From positions 1 through 64,000 of the forward strand of contig JADFAK010000018.1 of NCBI GenBank assembly GCA_015665315.1: DNA of 64,000 nt, in the 5' to 3' direction. Position numbers and translations under genes: made by a program. A model generated the notes under the pieces. That model had not been told where the DNA came from. It made no database searches and worked only from the letters and a program-made list of their open reading frames with translations. Below, one piece after another: positions 30,134 through 33,770 of this stretch. Origin of the DNA: Flavobacteriales bacterium. Lineage in GTDB: Bacteria; Bacteroidota; Bacteroidia; Flavobacteriales_D; Sanyastnellaceae. The stretch's first letter is position 1. Every line of letters starts with the position of its first letter.

Positions 30134-30709
30134 TTGTTGAATCTCAAGAATAAAAGAAACGCTTCAGACGAAGAACTCGTGAAAATCATTGTGAAGAGCA
30201 ATCGACACGATGACTTTGGGATACTGTATGACCGGTATTCCGAAAAAGTTTATCACAAGTGTATATCGTTCGTCAAGGACTTGGATGAGGCCAAAGATTT
30301 GACGCACGACATATTTCTGAAGACTTTTTTAAACCTGTCGAAGTTTTCGCACAAGGCAAAGTTTTCGACTTGGTTATATAGTTTGACCTACAATTTCTGC
30401 ATTGATTATATGCGGAAGAACAACAAGATTAAAAAAGAACCTGAAGAAGCTCTCAGGCATATTGCGGATGACGACGATGCACTATTGGAGCGCGAGTTGA
30501 TGCAAATGAAAGCGGAGCGACTGACCAAAGTATTGGATACTATTTCCGTCAAAGACAAAATGGTGCTTTTAATGAAGTACCAAGATGACATGCCGATAAC
30601 GGAAATGATGGATGCTCTTGAATGCAATGAGAGCGCCGTCAAGATGCGACTGAAACGAGCAAAAGCCAAAGCTGTTAACACTTACAAAACCATGTACGGT
30701 GATGAGTGA
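30134..30709 (+). CDS. ECF-type RNA polymerase sigma factor
   Basis: 191 residues, starting at TTG (30134, or the adjacent TTG at 30137). The sigma-2 region has YDRYSEKVYHKC..DLDEAKDLTHDIFLKTF and FSTWLYSLTYNFCIDYMRK (about 35-95). The sigma-4 helix-turn-helix at about 130-180 contains KDKMVLLMKYQDDM and NESAVKMRLKRAKA. It directs RNA polymerase to a small regulon, which presumably includes its own operon. It overlaps the next small gene by 8 nt and heads a compact run of channel genes, suggesting control of an osmotic or envelope response (inference). No classical anti-sigma membrane protein follows. Confidence 0.93.
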   Translation: MLNLKNKRNASDEELVKIIVKSNRHDDFGILYDRYSEKVYHKCISFVKDLDEAKDLTHDIFLKTFLNLSKFSHKAKFSTWLYSLTYNFCIDYMRKNNKIKKEPEEALRHIADDDDALLERELMQMKAERLTKVLDTISVKDKMVLLMKYQDDMPITEMMDALECNESAVKMRLKRAKAKAVNTYKTMYGDE

Positions 30710-30884
30710 GAACCCGTTTAAAATAATAGAACCACGTGAGGAAATACCCGCTACCGTAAAAAAGGAAGTTATGGGTAGCGTCAAGTCTGTGGTCTTGCTA
30801 TTGCGGTTTGTTCAGCTATTTATTGGTGACTTCACCTCGGTATTCATCGATAAGTTCAAGACCAATGCACCCAAGAATAAATAG
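30702..30884 (+). CDS. small conserved protein co-transcribed with the sigma factor
   Basis: 60 residues from the ATG at 30702 (GTG one codon earlier). It starts within the last codons of the sigma gene (8-nt overlap), so it is very likely co-translated. The sequence NPFKIIEPREEIPATVKKEV is followed by a moderately hydrophobic amphipathic helix (SVKSVVLLLRFVQLFIGDF) and a basic end. Similar small proteins follow ECF sigma genes in other Bacteroidota (recalled). It could modulate the sigma factor or associate with the membrane; no function is established. Confidence 0.75.
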   Translation: MSENPFKIIEPREEIPATVKKEVMGSVKSVVLLLRFVQLFIGDFTSVFIDKFKTNAPKNK

Positions 30885-30904: not shown

Positions 30905-31762
30905 ATGGATAATCTAGCCAGCCTTTCCGATAAGTTATTGAATTCTTTCGCCAAATATGGTGGAACCATCGTGGACTATTTGCCGAATTTATTGGTCGCG
31001 ATACTTTTATTCGTCGTCGGTTGGCTCATAGCCAAGCTCATCGCTCGAATCGTAAAAAAGGCACTCATGGCCATGAGCTTTGACGAGCTCATAAAGAAAG
31101 TGAATCTCGACAAGATGCTGGCCAAAATCAAGCCCGACATCAGTGCGTCGGCAGTTCTTTCAAAGCTTGTCTACTGGTTGATCATGCTAGTAGTAATCAC
31201 GGCCATGGCCGATTTCCTTGGCTGGGATATGGTGACAAATGGCATTGCTAGCCTGTTTGCCTACCTCCCTACCCTATTTGTAGCTCTTCTCCTTTTCATC
31301 ATCGGCGTATACATTGCCGATTTGGTGAAGAATATGGTCTATACAGCAGCAAATTCGATAGGTATATCAGGCGCCATGGCCATTGCCAATATTGTTTATT
31401 ACATCCTGTTTATTTTCATAGCGATTACGGCTCTGAATCAAGCGGGAGTGGACACCTCGATTATTACGTCGAATGTGACCATTATTTTAGGATCGATATT
31501 GCTTGCTTTTGCGCTTTCGTACGGAATTGCATCACGCAACCTCGTTTCCAATCTGCTATCATCTTATTACGGCAAGGGAAAATTTGTTGCTGGTCAGCGT
31601 ATTCGAATTGATGATATCGAAGGTGAAATCATCAAAATCGACAGCATTTCAGTGACCCTGTCTACAGGCACCAGTAAAATCGTAATTCCAAGTAAAAATT
31701 TAATAGAAGGCACAGTCGAAATTCTATTTGAACCCGAATTCAATGAAGAAGAATCAGACTAA
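30905..31762 (+). CDS. mechanosensitive-channel-like membrane protein (TM-helix repeat type)
   Basis: 285 residues, with membrane helices near 25-47, 86-105, 114-137, 155-175 and 185-205. They include two TM-helix repeats of the form YLPNLLVAILLFVVGWLIAK and YLPTLFVALLLFIIGVYIAD. A pore-like segment (LAFALSYGIASRNLVSNLL) leads to a short MscS-type beta domain (FVAGQRIRIDDIEGEIIKID) and an acidic tail. It probably forms a stretch-activated or constitutive small-ion channel. Its last 20 nt overlap a 43-residue micro-ORF, and a second MscS gene follows. Confidence 0.85.
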   Translation: MDNLASLSDKLLNSFAKYGGTIVDYLPNLLVAILLFVVGWLIAKLIARIVKKALMAMSFDELIKKVNLDKMLAKIKPDISASAVLSKLVYWLIMLVVITAMADFLGWDMVTNGIASLFAYLPTLFVALLLFIIGVYIADLVKNMVYTAANSIGISGAMAIANIVYYILFIFIAITALNQAGVDTSIITSNVTIILGSILLAFALSYGIASRNLVSNLLSSYYGKGKFVAGQRIRIDDIEGEIIKIDSISVTLSTGTSKIVIPSKNLIEGTVEILFEPEFNEEESD

Positions 31763-31874
31763 GCTAGCACCAGAACAAGCGCTTTTACGATCTCTCGAGT
31801 TACAAAAAGAAGCGCTTCAGAAAATCTCTCCGAAGAAGGGGGTGAAAGAATCGAATAAGAAAAAGAAATCATAA
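31743..31874 (+). CDS. 43-residue basic micro-ORF between two channel genes
   Basis: The ATG at 31743 lies inside the end of the upstream channel gene (20-nt overlap, different frame); the TAA ends 9 nt before the next MscS ATG. The peptide begins MKKNQTKLAPEQALLRSLEL and ends with a lysine-rich tail KESNKKKKS. The middle could form an amphipathic helix (EQALLRSLELQKEALQKI) with heptad-like leucines. The position, tight spacing and strong basic/helical character argue for translation, though the length is too short for certainty. Confidence 0.6.
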   Translation: MKKNQTKLAPEQALLRSLELQKEALQKISPKKGVKESNKKKKS

Positions 31875-31883
31875 AGTAACATC

Positions 31884-32708
31884 ATGGACAAAATCGACAT
31901 TTCTTCCTATCTGACAATGGGAACGGACGCGGTGATCAAGTATGCCCCCAAAGTATTGTTGGCTCTTTTGGTCCTCTTTATTGGACTTAGAATTATCAAG
32001 TTTTTGCAAAAGATGATTCAAAAAGCCAGCGACAAAAGCAATCTAGACCAAGCACTAGCGTCTTTTCTGACTAGTCTGTGTGGCTGGGTTCTTAAAATTC
32101 TACTTTTCGTAGCTGTGGCCGACATGATGGGAGTTGCTACAACATCTTTCATTGCGGTAATTGGTGCTGCTGGATTGGCCATTGGACTGGCTCTTCAGGG
32201 AACTCTGGCCAATTTTGCGGGAGGTGTTCTGATCCTAATTTTCAAGCCATTCAAAATCGGCGACCTTGTCAATTCTCAGGGTGTTGTAGGAAATGTAAAA
32301 ACCATACAGATCTTCAATACAATCCTATTAACTCCTGAAAACAAAACCGTCATAATGCCCAATGGAGCAGTTATGAATAACCACATCATCAACTTTACTG
32401 AAGAAGGAAAAATCAGGGTTGATTTATCGGTGGGCATTTCATACACAGCCGACATCAAGAAGGCCAAGGATGTTTTAGAGGCAGCCCTGGCTCAAGATTC
32501 AAGAGTTTTAAAATCGCCTTCACCGACAGTTGCTGTAGCCGAATTAGGCGATTCTTCAGTCAACCTAGCTGTACGCCCATGGTGCGATCCAGCAGTTTAT
32601 TGGGATGTGTACTTTGACACGCTAGAAAATTGTAAAATTGCACTCGATAAAGAAGGAATTGGAATTCCATTTCCGCAACGAGATGTTCACATTTATAACC
32701 ACAATTGA
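31884..32708 (+). CDS. mscS: MscS family mechanosensitive ion channel
   Basis: 274 residues with three membrane helices (about 20-40, 62-82 and 88-118). The pore helix TM3 carries the Gly/Ala packing pattern IGAAGLAIGLALQGTLANFA. The beta domain (FKIGDLVNSQGVVGNVKTI, TVIMPNGAVMNNHIINF) and the alpha/beta C-terminal domain ending in IGIPFPQRDVHIY are standard for small MscS channels. It releases solutes under membrane tension during hypo-osmotic shock. It is the fifth gene of the sigma-factor operon. Confidence 0.94.
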   Translation: MDKIDISSYLTMGTDAVIKYAPKVLLALLVLFIGLRIIKFLQKMIQKASDKSNLDQALASFLTSLCGWVLKILLFVAVADMMGVATTSFIAVIGAAGLAIGLALQGTLANFAGGVLILIFKPFKIGDLVNSQGVVGNVKTIQIFNTILLTPENKTVIMPNGAVMNNHIINFTEEGKIRVDLSVGISYTADIKKAKDVLEAALAQDSRVLKSPSPTVAVAELGDSSVNLAVRPWCDPAVYWDVYFDTLENCKIALDKEGIGIPFPQRDVHIYNHN

Positions 32709-32715
32709 AACTAAA

Positions 32716-33720
32716 ATGAAAAATTTTATCGCATGCGTAGGCATGTGCGTATTGACTCTTGCGTCAACAGCACAAGACAGTAACAAAGTCCTTTCTTCGG
32801 ATGAAGAAAACAACCTCGTATCTAACTTAACGGCGCAAGATGACGCAGCCGCTCCTACGGATACAACGTGGACCAAAGGAGGTACATTCGGACTAAACTT
32901 CTCTCAAGTTTATCTGGACAACTGGGCAGCCGGTGGTGAAAGCTCTATGTCGGTAAACGGACTGTTAAGTCTATTTGCCAATTACGCAAAGAACAAGTCT
33001 ACTTGGGACAACAACCTTGACCTAGCATACGGTATGCTTTGGCAAGGTGATGCTGCAGGTATCAAAACGGACGACAAGATTGACTTCGCCTCAAAGTATG
33101 GTTTGAAGGCATCGAAGCGTTGGTATTATTCGGCTTTGGTGAATTTCAAATCGCAATTCGTAGCTGGTTATGATAACCCATTTGCACCTGATTCTTTGCG
33201 AAACGAGATTTCGAACTTCATGGCTCCTGCTTATGTATTAGCTGCCTTGGGTATGGATTACAAACGAGGAAAGAACTTCAGCGCTTTTATATCTCCTATT
33301 ACCACTAAAATGACCATTGTAAACAATCAAACACTAGCTGATGCAGGTGCTTTTGGCGTGGAAGGAGCGGAATACGACGAAGATGGAAATGTTGTTACAA
33401 AAGGAAAGCTTTTTCGCCAAGAAATGGGCGCTTATTTGAAGCTGATGTATAAGGCCGACATCGTGAAAAATGTCGCTTTGCAGACGAAGTTGGACTTGTT
33501 TTCTAACTACTTCAACAACCCACAGAATATCGACGTGAGTTGGGAAACGTTGATCAGCATGAAGATCAACAAGTACCTGTCTACAACTATCTCAACTTCG
33601 GTATTGTATGATGACGACATTAAGATTGCACGAAATGACGACGAAATCACCAACGGTGGTGGCGGACCAGCAGTTCAATTCAAGGAAGTGTTGGCAGTTG
33701 GACTTTCAGTGAAATTCTAA
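32716..33720 (+). CDS. DUF3078 family secreted/outer-membrane protein
   Basis: 334 residues from MKNFIACVGMCVLTLASTAQ, which places a signal peptide first; the frame is open further upstream inside mscS. The mature protein matches the DUF3078 pattern TWTKGGTFGLNFSQVYLDNW and LDLAYGMLWQGD, with alternating aromatic strands and a C-terminal VLAVGLSVKF, as expected for a beta-barrel outer-membrane protein. It starts 7 nt after mscS and ends before a strong terminator, so it is the last member of the operon. Function unknown. Confidence 0.88.
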   Translation: MKNFIACVGMCVLTLASTAQDSNKVLSSDEENNLVSNLTAQDDAAAPTDTTWTKGGTFGLNFSQVYLDNWAAGGESSMSVNGLLSLFANYAKNKSTWDNNLDLAYGMLWQGDAAGIKTDDKIDFASKYGLKASKRWYYSALVNFKSQFVAGYDNPFAPDSLRNEISNFMAPAYVLAALGMDYKRGKNFSAFISPITTKMTIVNNQTLADAGAFGVEGAEYDEDGNVVTKGKLFRQEMGAYLKLMYKADIVKNVALQTKLDLFSNYFNNPQNIDVSWETLISMKINKYLSTTISTSVLYDDDIKIARNDDEITNGGGGPAVQFKEVLAVGLSVKF

Positions 33721-33741
33721 GAAATCACACAACGAACAGGA

Positions 33742-33770
33742 AAAGGCGATCCATTGGGTCGCCTTTTTCA
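33742..33770 (+). terminator. terminator of the sigma/mechanosensitive operon
   Basis: AAAGGCGA (33742-33749) pairs with TCGCCTTT (33759-33766), inner bases CC/GG extend the stem, and TTTTT follows. It lies 21 nt after the DUF3078 stop. Confidence 0.85.

Follow-up and report, generated by a model that had tools for sequence, protein, structure and literature searches.

Analysis of a 64,000-nucleotide stretch of Flavobacteriales DNA (hereafter the window) revealed a short open reading frame, here termed the micro-ORF, between two genes for mechanosensitive channels. On balance, and with modest confidence, we regard it as a real, genus-restricted and probably young small protein gene in an operon-like run, whose predicted helix is probably under selection. 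The micro-ORF spans positions 31743 to 31874 of the plus strand, comprises 43 codons from its ATG start to its TAA stop, and contains a conserved helix core at codons 11 to 25 (31773 to 31817). Its start overlaps the end of the upstream gene by 20 nt, and a gap of 9 nt separates its TAA from the ATG of the downstream gene at 31884; an initial annotation of this locus was exact in these coordinates and distances and in the peptide length of 43 amino acids. The micro-ORF and the downstream gene lie in a common phase, with the TAA and three codons between them. The annotation also placed the frame below usual gene-calling limits, which is doubtful given that its 132 nt exceed the Prodigal default minimum gene length of 90 nt.

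The upstream neighbor (here named channel A; 30905 to 31762, plus strand) encodes 285 amino acids and the downstream neighbor, a canonical MscS-like channel gene (here MscS; 31884 to 32708, plus strand), 274 amino acids. Both belong to the MscS family by Pfam matches above the cut-off, which bears out the description of the micro-ORF as lying between two channel genes. PF00924 scored 22.3 bits in channel A and 64.6 bits in MscS (cut-off 20.2), PF05552 scored 74.5 and 34 bits, respectively (cut-off 22), and PF21082 matched MscS only and was absent from channel A. The best NCBIfam matches of both neighbors were mechanosensitive-channel models, below their cut-offs. The run begins with a gene for an ECF-type sigma factor (30134 to 30709, plus strand; TIGR02937 above cut-off), followed by a second small gene for a 60-amino-acid protein (30702 to 30884, plus strand, from the ATG at 30702), channel A, the micro-ORF, MscS and a DUF3078/DUF481 gene (32716 to 33720, plus strand; Pfam), the last of the run, whose product is likely an outer-membrane barrel, judging from its family. 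A terminator-like hairpin with a T-rich tail lies 3' of this gene (33739 to 33769, plus strand). Spacing and gene order thus describe an operon-like run that may be read as one transcript. Sigma-70-type promoter-like sites numbered 8 between 30000 and 33900, with a shuffle expectation of 8.1, and the consensus searched is not that of Bacteroidota.

The 60-amino-acid protein gene, which overlaps the stop of the sigma factor gene and sits between it and channel A, is an unnamed small gene in its own right. Its product is better conserved than the micro-ORF peptide, being encoded at 8 of 10 further loci tested within the family (63 to 82% identity) and at two loci of another family (56 to 58% identity). 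It had no Pfam, NCBIfam or PHROGs profile match at E ≤ 1.

The genus is represented by two genomes in our collection, that of the window and one congener (genome G001, locus L016). At L016:4157-4288 the congener carries a frame of likewise 43 codons, in the same place and phase relative to both neighbors, with its ATG 23 nt inside channel A and its TAA 3 nt before MscS. The flanking channel A and MscS proteins are 74% and 80% identical, respectively, between the two loci, and the frame lacks internal stops in both genomes of the genus. The two peptides are 33% identical in a MAFFT alignment; BLASTP of one against the other returned no alignment at E ≤ 100, and in a tblastn search of L016 the correct place ranked first with a nonsignificant E value of 0.15. 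Within codons 11 to 25, 8 of 15 residues are identical, 7 of these 8 through different codons. The residues common to both species are A13, L14, S17, L18, L20, K22, A24 and L25, all within the predicted helix. Comparison with related genomes had been proposed at the outset as the check that could count against the gene; in the one congener, the frame proved intact, of the same length and phase, and constrained in its codon pattern.

Several comparisons of the two sequences argue for coding. The two spacers can be paired in 18 frame combinations, of which micro-ORF with micro-ORF scored 43 and the other 17 scored 24 or less. Only 81 of 20,000 residue shuffles reached its local score and 22 of 20,000 its global score, and composition-matched random open frames did so in 12 and 15 of 20,000 cases, respectively, both being null models that ignore shared DNA ancestry. 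Over the 43 ungapped codons, 22 first, 23 second and 9 third positions are identical. Fisher tests gave P values of 0.0017 (second versus third position) and 0.0005 (first plus second versus third) without gaps, and 0.004 and 0.003 for the MAFFT alignment.

Shared ancestry was allowed for in a neutral model in which change was simulated to equal nucleotide identity, applied to the two sequences only. Against this model, whole-length BLOSUM similarity was marginal for these two sequences (P = 0.058 for the MAFFT alignment, 0.035 ungapped), residue identity over the whole length gave P = 0.035 and 0.015, respectively, and the codon-position pattern P = 0.014 and 0.002. Similarity of codons 11 to 25 exceeded the simulation (P = 0.0002, two sequences), and no constraint was detected by this model in codons 1 to 10 (P = 0.78) or 26 to 43 (P = 0.49). 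The core was chosen after viewing the alignment; corrected by a scan, which accounts for the choice of stretch and not for the choice of finding, the best 15-codon stretch gave P = 0.0012, with values of 0.011 for 10-codon and 0.026 for 20-codon stretches.

Codon usage of the micro-ORF falls within the range of real genes, as 11% (window) and 53% (L016) of 2,000 real-gene pieces scored as low or lower. Among 123 spurious open reading frames, 6.5% (window) and 0.8% (L016) scored as high, and one other, stop-containing frame of the window spacer exceeded the micro-ORF (0.15 versus 0.04). Composition shuffles stayed open over 43 codons at rates of 5.1% (window) and 6.5% (L016), which is weak evidence taken alone. 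The same applies to the count of such frames in co-directional spacers of 60 to 250 nt in the window, where 1 of 14, that of the micro-ORF itself, contained one according to a crude gene list. Taken together, these comparisons of two species make it quite probable that the micro-ORF is truly coding, whether the peptide or its translation is what matters.

AlphaFold2, run on the two-row alignment, predicted one helix at residues 10 to 28, with a mean pLDDT of 91 for residues 11 to 20, 79 for residues 21 to 30 and 73.9 overall (pTM 0.38). The leucine-bearing helix described in the initial annotation is therefore upheld as a predicted, conserved and central element, and its KKKK tail belongs to the part without constraint. 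The label "amphipathic" did not hold up, since the maximal Eisenberg hydrophobic moment was reached in 46% of residue shuffles of the window peptide and in 74% of those of its counterpart. "Basic" describes the window peptide (net charge +9) better than that of the congener (+3), and the basic tail is not conserved. Neither sequence offers a hydrophobic helix that would span a membrane: as read from the sequences, stretches free of K, R, D and E reach at most 4 residues in the window peptide and 9 in that of L016. The best explanation of these features is a short soluble peptide, predicted to form a single helix with loose ends. The window peptide had no Pfam, NCBIfam or PHROGs match at E ≤ 1. 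For the L016 peptide, there was no Pfam match at E ≤ 10 and one match to a PHROGs family of unknown function (E = 0.088), and the alignment of both peptides (A1) had no match among PDB sequences at E ≤ 5.

We further analyzed whether the frame occurs beyond the genus. Of 114 family genomes, 11 contained channel A (E ≤ 1e-10), and the spacer between channel A and MscS was examined by script in 10 of these 11, namely the window's genome, G001 and eight genomes of other genera, including that with locus L014. The remaining genome, G002, was left out of the script because two frames each hold part of its MscS; inspected by eye, the first ATG past its channel stop runs into MscS, with no separate small frame. 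A spacer-spanning frame was defined as one of at least 15 codons, outside the frame of channel A, that runs from the end of channel A into the spacer and terminates by the start of MscS. Both the window and L016 have such a frame; none of the eight genomes of other genera does. The spacer measures 121 nt in the window, 112 nt in L016, 78 and 91 nt in genus g16, and 13 to 31 nt in the six others, which therefore have no room for such a frame at that place. Two of the other-genus loci are irregular by sequencing error or decay, namely L008 in G002, with the split MscS, and L014 in G016, with an internal TAA in channel A.

Searches for the peptide itself gave matches at chance level outside the genus. 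In 100 genomes searched at E ≤ 1, three matched, comprising the window's own genome and two that we rejected as chance, one (E = 0.24) with three internal stops and one (E = 0.77) inside a 514-amino-acid frame. Profile A1 matched 29 of the 114 family genomes at E ≤ 5, and no match beyond the two known places was better than E = 0.0187. The top one outside those places, L020, covers 14 residues in a frame of 71 to 73 amino acids that is overlapped by a longer open reading frame and was also matched in two more genomes of genus g4; it was set aside as chance. Among 399 genomes of the order, some of which are also in the family set, 7 matched at E ≤ 0.05; the 5 of these that lie beyond the genus, L020 included, were likewise treated as chance. 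The best match beyond the genus in this search (E = 0.00132 for one genome) lies inside a 302-amino-acid frame. Since both genomes of the genus have the frame, the eight others are without it, and matches beyond the genus remain at chance level, the micro-ORF was probably born recently in this genus, within its lengthened spacer, as far as the available genomes indicate. For a peptide of 43 amino acids, a moved or fast-changing relative may exist elsewhere. The spacer showed no notable similarity to flanking sequence that would point to an origin by copying from the flanks.

MscS relatives (E ≤ 1e-80) occurred in 19 of 299 genomes drawn from the order, and at 11 MscS loci outside the family no channel A was found beside MscS in the stretch examined. 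Viral contigs yielded no channel A relative. In genus g28 of another family, locus L055 (genome G077) contains the sigma factor, the 60-amino-acid protein, channel A and DUF3078, with no MscS match between the last two, and locus L056 (G083) also has the run of sigma factor, 60-amino-acid protein and channel A. As DUF3078 follows channel A at L055 with no MscS match between them, the run has probably gained or lost MscS. The window's genome harbors a second, diverged arrangement of sigma factor, channel A and MscS (L015; G000:C20:12631-13449; 41%, 37% and 27% identity). There, the frame of MscS opens at the channel stop and the micro-ORF is absent.

According to the reading that we favor, the micro-ORF would be read from the shared mRNA of the run and translated, and ribosomes ending at its TAA, 3 to 9 nt before MscS, would be positioned to restart on MscS. 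Coupling is suggested where a frame overlaps the next gene or stops no more than about 10 nt before it, and the gap is 9 nt in the window and 3 nt in L016. The helix would be kept by purifying selection and would most likely bind a partner, for which the two co-made channels are the first candidates because they are encoded in the same run. The initial annotation had suggested a channel-associated small protein; the congener frame and the constraint support a real small gene, and its association with the channels is suggested by gene order alone. The more specific proposal, that a genus-specific helical microprotein acts as a soluble accessory subunit or as an assembly or gating factor of the two MscS-type channels while its frame couples translation, is speculative, and we give it little weight.

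Ribosome passage over the spacer and restart on MscS could be all that matters, with the peptide as a by-product; we consider this unlikely. The micro-ORF stop lies just before MscS in both species, and their spacers are the longest of those compared. In experiments with Escherichia coli and Haloferax volcanii, reinitiation was reported to be almost abolished at a distance of about 20 nt (PMC10666635; review PMC12548453), which makes bridging plausible because the distance from channel A to MscS is 112 to 121 nt. The typical overlap of coupled pairs is -4/-1 (PMC10666635), which differs from the 20 to 23 nt at the front of the micro-ORF. The spacers of genus g16, at 78 to 91 nt, do without a bridging frame, and bridging leaves the retention of helix residues through synonymous changes unexplained. 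We ranked a function of the peptide first and bridging second because bridging alone would not keep these residues; both may operate together. It is similarly unlikely, in our estimation, that the frame is open by chance in the long spacer of this genus, its similarity being residual DNA homology plus luck. The frequency of open frames in shuffled spacers, the insignificant BLAST similarity, the marginal whole-length constraint and the restriction to two species are compatible with this explanation, but core protein similarity is greater than DNA identity gives, conservation differs among codon positions, and the window frame matches that of L016 in length, phase and both borders.

Two further explanations fared worse. 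That the spacer functions as a cis-acting RNA element, the frame being incidental, appears very improbable: centroid folds of the single strand contained stems of 10 pairs (window spacer) and 7 pairs (L016), but the stems lie at different places in the two species, and folding was no better than in shuffles for the window (z = +1.3) and slightly better for L016 (z = -1.3), where 18 of 200 shuffles were as good. With no Rfam match at gathering thresholds and no terminator-like site on the plus strand of the spacer (one was found on the minus strand), folding, Rfam and the terminator scan leave this explanation unsupported. We discount almost entirely that the frame is a piece of a split neighbor, whether channel A continued at its C-terminus by a frameshift or MscS lengthened at its N-terminus by read-through of a stop. 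The phase shared with MscS in both species is what the latter would predict, but a TAA intervenes in both. At the other-genus loci that were read, the end of channel A falls at nearly the same position and MscS follows soon after, with no matching extension; on these grounds this explanation was rejected. In G002, an in-frame MscS start lies about 13 codons earlier and its sequence is unrelated, and the spacer lacks notable similarity to the flanking genes.

If the favored reading of a selected small protein gene is correct, the micro-ORF would be a one-genus small gene within an otherwise conserved run, and sister genera show the run without the frame. It would be surprising if MscS-type channels had an accessory peptide; a limited literature search found no bacterial accessory peptide subunit of such channels. 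Small protein regulators of membrane transport proteins include KdpF and MgtS, which have a membrane-spanning hydrophobic helix. The micro-ORF peptide resembles these, and AcrZ on AcrB, as a very small protein that has a membrane transport protein as its proposed target and is easily overlooked in annotation. Their hydrophobic helices cross the membrane, whereas the predicted helix of the micro-ORF is interrupted by charged residues and its partner is putative. AcrZ acts on AcrB as a small protein with such a membrane-spanning hydrophobic helix (PMC7267776). The gap of 3 to 9 nt between stop and ATG recalls open reading frames coupled by termination and reinitiation (PMC10666635, PMC12548453). 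Such coupled frames overlap by 1 or 4 nt, in contrast to the front overlap of 20 to 23 nt and the conserved helix of the micro-ORF, for which coupling is putative. The assignment of the micro-ORF as an orphan small gene is moderately supported by these sequence comparisons. Lineage-restricted orphan small genes are confined to one genus, short, without family match and unconstrained at their ends, and the micro-ORF is alike in all four respects. Unlike orphan genes in general, it sits within an older conserved run, so that the state without the frame can be read in sister genera.
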